This document shows positions 3,325-5,457 of a stretch of 64,000 bases of DNA, one piece after another. The position numbers were made by a program, and so were the translations under genes. The notes under the pieces were generated by a model. It was not told the DNA's origin. It saw nothing but the letters and a program-made list of their open reading frames with translations, and did not search any database. Positions within the stretch are counted from its first letter, which is position 1, and the number at the start of each line of letters is the position of its first letter. Source of the DNA: Natribaculum luteum (lineage in GTDB: Archaea; Halobacteriota; Halobacteria; Halobacteriales; Natrialbaceae); the NCBI RefSeq assembly GCF_023008545.1, contig NZ_CP095397.1, positions 434,001 through 498,000 of the forward strand, written 5' to 3'.

Positions 3325-3332
3325 CTTTTATC
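3325..3332 (+). promoter_or_regulatory. TATA box of the thrS leader transcript
   Basis: CTTTTATC at 3325-3332, preceded by an A/C-rich BRE-like AACC, is a typical haloarchaeal core promoter. Transcription would start about 25 nt downstream, near 3353-3356, just before the ATG of the small leader ORF at 3358 and about 160 nt before thrS. Confidence 0.6.
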
Positions 3333-3357
3333 CCGGTCGAGAGTAATCGTAATCACG

Positions 3358-3399
3358 ATGGTAGGTGTCCGCTTTACAGGGGCTCTCGCCCGCTTCTAA
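3358..3399 (+). CDS. putative 13-residue leader peptide upstream of thrS
   Basis: The frame from ATG 3358 to TAA 3397-3399 encodes MVGVRFTGALARF. The predicted transcription start lies 2-5 nt upstream, so it would be read as a leaderless mRNA start, which haloarchaea use efficiently. It contains one Thr codon, ACA (codon 7), a rare choice in such a GC-rich genome. Its first codons form one arm of the 3360-3411 hairpin. Whether it is translated is unproven; its only support is position, promoter spacing and overlap with the stem. Confidence 0.4.
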   Translation: MVGVRFTGALARF

Positions 3400-3411
3400 C
3401 TCACACCTACC
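3360..3411 (+). promoter_or_regulatory. inverted repeat in the thrS 5' leader
   Basis: GGTAGGTGT (3360-3368) is perfectly complementary to ACACCTACC (3403-3411), a 9-bp stem enclosing 34 nt. The left arm lies inside the mini-ORF (codons 1-4) and the right arm starts 3 nt after its stop codon, so ribosome position on the mini-ORF would decide whether the stem forms. About 100 nt separate the stem from thrS. This is a candidate attenuator or other regulatory leader element. Confidence 0.5.
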
Positions 3412-3513
3412 GTGCGCTGTGTCGACCACGACCGACCAGCGGACGGTCCAGGTGGATCCACCGGCGGACGCACACCCGGCGTTCTCACGTTCACACGAAC
3501 CACACCCACAGCC

Positions 3514-5457
3514 ATGTCAGAATCAGAATCACAGGAAGAGATAGCGGTCGTACTGCCCGACGGATCCGAACTCGAGGTCGATGCCGACGCGACGGTCGAA
3601 GACTGCGCCTACGAGATCGGCCCCGGCCTCGGCCGGGACACGGTCGCGGGCAAACTCGACGGCGACCTCGTCGCCAAAGAGGAACCCGTCTACGACGGGG
3701 CGAAACTCGAGATCGTCACGGACCAGTCCGAGGAGTACCTGCGAGTGATGCGCCACTCCGCCGCCCACTGTCTCGCACAGGCGGTCGAGCGGCTGTACGA
3801 CGACGTCAAACTCGCCATCGGGCCGCCGACCGACGAGGGTTTCTACTACGACTTCGACGACCTCGAGGTCGACGAGGAGGATCTCGAGGAGATCGAAGCG
3901 GAGATGGAAGCGATCGTCGAGGCCGATTACGACATCGAACGCGAGGAAGTCTCGATCGCGGACGCCGAGGAGCGACTCGACGGCCAGCCGTACAAACTCG
4001 AACTCCTCTCCGAGTTCGCCGACGAGAACGACCACGTCACCTTCTACAGCCAGGGCGAGTGGGGGGACCTCTGTGCCGGCCCGCACGTCGACTCGACGGG
4101 CGAGATCGGCGCGGTGAAACTGCTCGAGATCGCCGGCGCCTACTGGCGCGGCGACGAGGAGAACCCGATGCAGACCCGGATTTACGGCACCGCCTTCGAG
4201 GACGAGTCCGACCTGGAGGCGTTCCTCGAGCGAAAACGCGAGGCCGAAGAGCGCGACCACCGCCGGATCGGCAACGAAATGGACCTGTTCTCGATCCAGG
4301 ACGTCACGGGTCCCGGACTGCCGCTGTATCACCCGCCGGGCAAGACGATCCTGAACGAACTCAGCGAGTTCGTCACCGATCTCAACGACGCCGCCGGCTA
4401 CGACTACGTCGAGACGCCCCACCTGTTCAAGACGGACCTCTGGAAACGCTCCGGCCACTACGAGAACTACCAGGACGACATGTTCGTCTTTGAACTCGGC
4501 GACGACGAGTTCGGGCTGAAGCCGATGAACTGCCCCGGCCACGCCACGATCTTCGACGACCACTCCTGGAGCTACCGGGACCTTCCCGTGCGGTACGCCG
4601 AGGACGGCAAGGTCTACCGCAAGGAACAGCGCGGCGAACTCTCGGGGCTCTCGCGCGTGTGGGCCTTCACGATCGACGACGGCCACCTGTTCGTCCGCCC
4701 CGACCAGATCGAAGCGGAAGTCGAGGCCATCATGGACGCCATCGACGAGGTGCTCTCGACGTTCGACCTGGAGTACGAGGTCGCACTGGCCACGCGCCCC
4801 GAGAAGAGCGTGGGAAGTGACGAGATCTGGGAGCGTGCGGAGTCCCAGCTGAAGGCCGTCCTCGAGGACCGCGAGATGGAGTACGACCTCGAGGAGGGCG
4901 ACGGTGCCTTCTACGGCCCGAAGATCGACTACGCCTTCGAGGACGCCATCGGCCGCAGCTGGGACGGTCCCACCGTCCAGCTCGACTTCAACATGCCCGA
5001 ACGGTTCGACCTCACCTACGTCGGCGAGGACAACGAGGAACACCGTCCCGTGATGATCCACCGGGCGCTGTACGGCAGCTACGAGCGGTTCTTCATGATG
5101 CTCATCGAGCACTTCGAGGGCAAGTTCCCGCTCTGGCTCGCCCCCGAGCAGGTCCGCGTGCTCCCCATCTCCGACGACAACCTCGAGTACGCCCGGGAGG
5201 TCGCCACGGAGTTCGACGACTTCCGTGTGGAGGTCGACGACCGCGACTCGACGCTCGAGCGCAAGATCCGCGCGGCCCACGACGACCGCGTCCCCTACCA
5301 GATCATCGTCGGCGACAACGAAGAGGAGGCGGGCAACATCTCGGTTCGCGACCGCTTCGAGGACCAGGAGTCCGACGTCGAAATCGAGGCGTTCCGTGCC
5401 CACCTCGAGGACGAACGGGACGCAAAGCGGACGGAACCGGACTTCCTCGCCGAGTAA
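3514..5457 (+). CDS. thrS: threonyl-tRNA synthetase
   Basis: A 647-residue class II synthetase that charges tRNA-Thr. Domain order: an N-terminal TGS domain (about 8-68), an N2 editing domain with HxxxH (His81, His85) and CxxxH (Cys187, His191), the catalytic core with a zinc Cys in MNCPGH (Cys340), then a C-terminal anticodon-binding domain from about 545. The editing domain is the type found in bacteria and eukaryotes, not the D-Tyr-deacylase-like archaeal type. The ATG at 3514 starts a Ser/Glu-rich leader before the TGS strand; the open frame reaches back to 3412 but those residues look non-coding. Preceded by a leader ORF and hairpin. Confidence 0.96.

Follow-up and report, generated by a model that had tools for sequence, protein, structure and literature searches.

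The threonyl-tRNA synthetase (ThrRS) gene thrS of Natribaculum luteum is preceded by a leader that is almost certainly a real, conserved cis element. It contains a very short open reading frame (micro-ORF) with a single threonine codon, a covarying stem and a candidate second helix that would use the same stem arm. The explanation that we somewhat favour is that this mRNA leader acts in cis as a ribosome-position switch and sets the output of ThrRS according to how much charged tRNA-Thr(UGU) is available.

Organization of the leader in the window

The window is the whole stretch of 64,000 nucleotides that was analyzed. The features of the leader and its gene are listed here by position.

3326–3331, + strand: TATA box TTTTAT, starting 32 nt upstream of the leader ATG (read directly)
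3358–3399, + strand: leader micro-ORF, 13 codons, peptide MVGVRFTGALARF, stop TAA (read directly; 94 leaders compared)
3360–3368, + strand: left arm of stem P1, GGTAGGTGT, within codons 1–4 (complementarity, covariation)
3365–3373, + strand: left-arm stretch GTGTCCGCT, able to pair with element D rather than with the right arm (fold, comparison, permutation)
3373–3378, + strand: invariant codon pair TTT-ACA, Phe-Thr (leader comparison, codon counts, tRNA genes)
3380–3391, + strand: inner hairpin P2, GGGC-TCTC-GCCC, just 3' of the Thr codon (direct reading, covariation)
3403–3411, + strand: right arm of stem P1, ACACCTACC (complementarity, covariation)
3410–3446, + strand: hairpin P3, CCGTGCGCTG / CAGCGGACGG (minimum free energy (MFE) folds; covariation by eye only)
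3463–3471, + strand: element D, GGCGGACGC, with which the left arm can pair instead, beginning 51 nt upstream of the thrS ATG (permutation, 0/5000 in family f1)
3482–3486, + strand: TTCTC motif 3' of element D, in other families directly 3' of P1 (counts versus expected)
3514–5457, + strand: thrS, bacterial-type threonyl-tRNA synthetase with TGS, SAD, class II core and anticodon domains (domain reading)

The coordinates that an earlier note on this DNA had given for the mini-ORF, the stem, the TATA box and the distance to thrS were exact on direct reading. The micro-ORF is probably leaderless, because its ATG (3358–3360) lies 26 nt past the TATA box, and from this spacing the transcript is predicted to carry only about 0–5 nt before the ATG. 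The position of the TATA box (−34 to −32 from the ATG) was the same in 58 of 60 leaders of family f1, the family of the window. The only threonine codon is ACA at codon 7 (3376–3378), and the frame ends with TAA at 3397–3399. Stem P1 has nine base pairs, with GGTAGGTGT fully complementary to ACACCTACC, and an additional U3359-G3412 pair; between its arms lie the TTT-ACA pair and then P2.

Distribution of the leader and its association with ThrRS genes

Of 46 f1 genomes sampled, 44 had the leader in front of thrS in a DNA search with a 231-nt query from the window, at up to 88% identity. Regions upstream of thrS were then picked by protein match instead of leader match. Such regions contained the leader in f7, in f10 and in individual genomes of f3 and f4; in eleven genomes of f4, f5 and f12, thrS lacks it and has a TATA-like box of its own. 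Halorubellus salinus (L002) is a named carrier, and inspection of the Halorubrum, Salinigranum, Halobonum and Halohasta loci showed that the leader is absent there.

Covariance model R1, applied to 392 genomes of the order, gave 135 matches, one per genome, in 94 of the 96 f1 genomes and in 41 genomes elsewhere. The matches in G025 and G051 were rejected as false positives, as they are not near thrS and lack TTTACA, and the element is thus found in 39 genomes of six other haloarchaeal families. Conservation in relatives, the lack of which the earlier note had named as a finding against its reading, is therefore extensive. A second covariance model, R2, run on 375 Halobacteriota genomes, yielded nothing convincing outside Halobacteria.

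The surroundings were fetched for 36 of the non-f1 matches, i.e., all except G108, G156, G166, G194 and G345, and for the f1 matches except about 30. Among these 36, 34 precede a ThrRS gene and two are the false positives; all other copies that were opened also sit upstream of thrS. Genomes of f17 and of part of f5 carry two copies of thrS; the leader stands before the more divergent copy (55–60% identical), and the main copy has none. Such two-ThrRS genomes (e.g., G031 and G192) are reminiscent of the inducible thrZ in Bacillus. In G283 the leader lies 179 nt upstream of an archaeal-type ThrRS gene with the archaea-specific editing domain PF08915, the product of which is only 32% identical to the window enzyme over the common part. 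The occurrence before divergent copies and before an archaeal-type gene indicates that the element goes with the function of the enzyme, and it is tied to ThrRS in three kinds of gene. Regions upstream of other class I and class II synthetase genes in G000, G112 and G024, where several gene starts are uncertain, contained no similar leader.

At one locus, L109 (G208), the ThrRS is 98% identical to that of the window, but for leader and spacer the identity is only 72%, and both resemble those of genus g2; recombination is a possible explanation.

Conservation of the micro-ORF and its rare threonine codon

The frame of the micro-ORF and its threonine codon, for which the earlier note had proposed a conservation test, were retained throughout: ATG, in-frame TTT-ACA and a stop were present in 94 of 94 leaders read. 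The distance from ATG to TTTACA, invariably divisible by three, was 15, 18 or 66 nt, and an in-frame stop followed soon 3' of ACA in every case. The spacing that is longer by 3 nt occurs in several lineages (G074, G192, G176, G283, G109), all in frame. The longest results from 51 extra in-frame nucleotides that separate the left arm from the RFT motif of the peptide in L125 (G229) and L126 (G036), which retain the peptide end RFTRA-ARF. All 56 distinct leader peptides contain Phe-Thr, although TTTACA served to place the leaders and its invariance is thus partly by construction. Among the regions matched via the thrS protein, every leader-like region had TTTACA, and the only model matches without it were the two false positives. 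That the stop codon adjoins the right arm of the stem, as had been noted before, is true for the window but not in general, since in several families it lies within the loop of the inner hairpin.

In window genes chosen by a simple filter, ACA makes up 6.2% of the Thr codons and TTT 11.8% of the Phe codons. Among 50 tRNA genes read in the genome there is one tRNA-Thr gene each with the anticodons GGU, CGU and UGU, and it is tRNA-Thr(UGU) that reads the rare codon ACA. A run of threonine codons is absent; there is one ACA only, though it is invariant. It is very likely that the micro-ORF is translated as part of the element.

Two further observations concern the reading frame and the tRNA genes. 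Read-through of the leader stop into thrS was considered but is not supported, because some spacers contain in-frame stops and stop codons are not clearly rarer in that frame than in the other two; for f1, the distance from the leader ATG to the thrS ATG is a multiple of three for 21 of 30 distinct spacings. In G000, five tRNA genes (Arg, Glu, Tyr, Asp, Gln) are clustered on the 862-kb second contig (L226, contig C2, 681200–683100), and their anticodons are also present on the main contig.

Covariation in P1 and P2 and an alternative partner of the left arm

In a first alignment, mostly of f1 leaders, P1 was near-invariant with two compensated positions. The 56-sequence multi-family alignment A4, which was fitted to a covariance model and thus leans towards structure, had changes on both sides in 9 of 15 pairs, and none of 500 shuffles scored as high. 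The covariation cells numbered 40 versus 14.0 in shuffles, and slid controls had only 1–4 pairs with changes on both sides. For P2, three of the four pairs were changed on both sides. Compensated arms of P1 are seen in f17 (GGTGACT/AGTCACC), G070 (GGCAGGTGTCTG/CAGACATCTGCC) and G109 (GTCGGTGATC/GATCACCGAC). In an f7 leader, L134 (G086), about 75–80 nt with an internal inverted repeat, CGAACGGCACCCGGGTGCCGTTCG, are inserted between P2 and the right arm of P1, and both arms are intact.

The MFE fold of the window leader alone pairs the left arm elsewhere than in P1. Throughout f1, the sequence GGTGTCCGC before TTT is complementary to the downstream element D (GCGGACRCC), and variants of D track the left arm: CGC occurs with GCGGAC, CGT with ACGGAC and TGC with GCAGAC. 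In the f10 genome G026 the left arm and D are GTGGCTAC and GTAGCCAC. When 13 left-arm variants were compared against each spacer, the leader's own arm was the best in 44 of 57 distinct f1 cases, and none of 5000 permutations of the left arms reached the observed total (1206, compared to a mean of 1115 with a standard deviation of 11). Element D was lost in the TAC class, and none was found in f7, f4, f3, f5 and most other families. The strong covariation thus bears out the stem that the earlier note had described, but in f1 the left arm has a choice between this stem and a second helix, which had been overlooked.

P1 and the helix of the left arm with D overlap in GGTG(T), and both covary in f1. 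The two helices should be mutually exclusive because they share GGTG; a possible alternative is a pseudoknot confined to the bases that are not in common. Many genera have an additional hairpin 3' of D in the f1 spacers (e.g., GAACTTC..GAAGTTC in L085), variants of which look compensated (GGACTTC/GGAGTCC in L118, GAACGTC/GACGTTC in L120).

Judging from these comparisons, the ORF frame, the fixed TTT-ACA, P1, P2, D and the pyrimidine motif TTYTC described below are kept by selection.

A proposed ribosome-position switch

In the proposed switch, the transcript would begin at or within a few nucleotides of the leader ATG, and ribosomes would start directly on the leaderless micro-ORF. The first codons of this frame, which are rich in G and form the left arm, could pair with the right arm (P1) or, in f1, with D. 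With ample Thr-tRNA the ribosome would pass ACA, the left arm would be freed and paired, and thrS expression would be low. When Thr-tRNA(UGU) is short, the ribosome would wait with ACA in the A site, the left arm would be covered, neither helix would form and thrS would be expressed. With ACA in the A site, the ATG would be 15 nt before the P-site codon, so that the whole left arm would be covered. Translation, stalling and the direction of the effect are parts of the switch that we infer: the stalled state would be the on state provided that each helix reduces thrS expression, and it fits this logic that the two share an arm under the stalled ribosome.

It is somewhat more likely than not that Thr-tRNA is sensed at the ACA codon. 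The preceding TTT is a counterpoint, as it is equally invariant although codon sensing needs no fixed TTT. Further points against the switch are that there is one Thr codon only and that D is missing in four families (f7, f4, f3, f5). The earlier suggestion that a waiting ribosome covers the left arm holds for most genomes, with the ATG 15 nt before TTT, but not for G229 and G036, because the 51 extra nucleotides put ACA too far away for one ribosome to cover the arm too. These two leaders argue against the simplest geometry.

Possible readouts and alternative explanations

Two special cases of the switch differ in its readout. In transcription attenuation proper, P1 or the left arm:D helix together with a pyrimidine tract would form a terminator or pause, and the ribosome position would set the read-through. 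The motif TTYTC is indeed found directly 3' of P1 in 24 of 33 leaders outside f1 (2.0 expected by shuffling) and in 43 of 59 f1 spacers, mostly 3' of D (3.2 expected), and the tract of G010 reads TTTTTCTC. Transcription in Haloferax terminates at T stretches (T5C, for example), and 503 of the sites have a hairpin upstream (PMC7237163), so that TTYTC after a helix is possibly a weak terminator or pause. The tract is, however, weak in most genomes (TTCTC), and no U-run follows P1 in the window; this version is put forward tentatively, as possible but not probable. The scarcity of U-runs would suit a switch at the level of translation, in which the helices govern ribosome loading on thrS, via a Shine-Dalgarno (SD) sequence in the short-leader families and without one in f1. 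An SD-like GGAGGTG lies near thrS in f7 and can pair with the right arm in some genomes, but this promising sequestration was not kept in G070 and G062 and was rejected. For occlusion of the thrS start there was no clear effect either, its predicted accessibility being nearly independent of the simulated ribosome position (0.60 versus 0.62). We regard the translational version as doubtful.

Two other explanations do without threonine sensing by a ribosome. ThrRS could bind the leader RNA, at P1, P2 and the internal loop with TTTACA, and excess enzyme would in this way repress its own gene, the ORF being secondary. The specificity for ThrRS genes of three kinds and the conservation of TTTACA and its loop at the nucleotide level, beyond what the amino acids need, would agree with such autoregulation. 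Yet protein binding does not explain why the distance from ATG to TTTACA is always a multiple of three, two rather dissimilar types of ThrRS would have to recognize the same element, and the P2 loops are short and variable. Mimicry of a tRNA-Thr anticodon arm was rejected on a comparison of sequence only: the leader shares nothing beyond chance with the GGU, CGU and UGU tRNAs of the genome (longest common word 5–6 nt, 6.9 for a shuffled leader). We consider autoregulation unlikely. Least probable, and in our view very unlikely, is a conserved 5' hairpin that stabilizes the mRNA, the micro-ORF being incidental; such protection is conceivable, but the element is confined to thrS across three ThrRS kinds, and frame, ACA and second helix are all conserved.

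Comparison with known systems

Leader ORFs that mediate amino-acid attenuation are textbook knowledge for bacteria. In the leader-peptide attenuators of the trp, his and thr operons and of pheST, a 5' micro-ORF with cognate codons, mutually exclusive helices and a stalled ribosome as sensor are combined. The thrS leader resembles them in having a 5' micro-ORF with a cognate codon, exclusive helices that involve the ORF (in f1, P1 versus left arm:D) and, as proposed here, a stalled-ribosome sensor. It differs in that it is archaeal with a leaderless ORF, has a single fixed rare codon instead of a codon run, has a stem that begins in the first codons, and lacks a strong U-run terminator in the window.

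Bacterial thrS and thrZ are controlled by T-box leaders, also where an inducible second copy accompanies a plain one. The control of a ThrRS gene and the arrangement of the two copies in f17 are similar, but the haloarchaeal leader has a conserved ORF instead of direct tRNA binding. A T-box riboswitch was rejected, as no Rfam T-box matched the leader even at E up to 5; the Rfam scan gave only two chance matches, far below gathering scores. The Escherichia coli thrS operator, a tRNA mimic that is bound by ThrRS, is likewise a structured 5' leader of thrS, in contrast to which the haloarchaeal leader has a conserved ORF frame.

Small ORFs in haloarchaeal 5'-UTRs have been described: long 5'-UTRs of Haloferax volcanii carry uORFs of 15–31 amino acids (PMC4983044), compared to 13 codons in the thrS leader, and that study does not mention attenuation, leader peptides or synthetases for them. 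A full-text literature search of papers outside subscription returned neither a leader-peptide attenuator from archaea nor a leader of thrS from haloarchaea.

Taken together, there is about an even chance that this is the first ribosome-mediated amino-acid attenuator in Archaea, which would combine a leaderless ORF, a single rare ACA codon and two competing helices, and would be present in at least seven haloarchaeal families and before three kinds of ThrRS. Attenuation in archaea would have to work with leaderless translation and a different RNA polymerase. As the element is compact, conserved and located at an essential gene, and haloarchaea are culturable and genetically tractable, its workings are directly testable.
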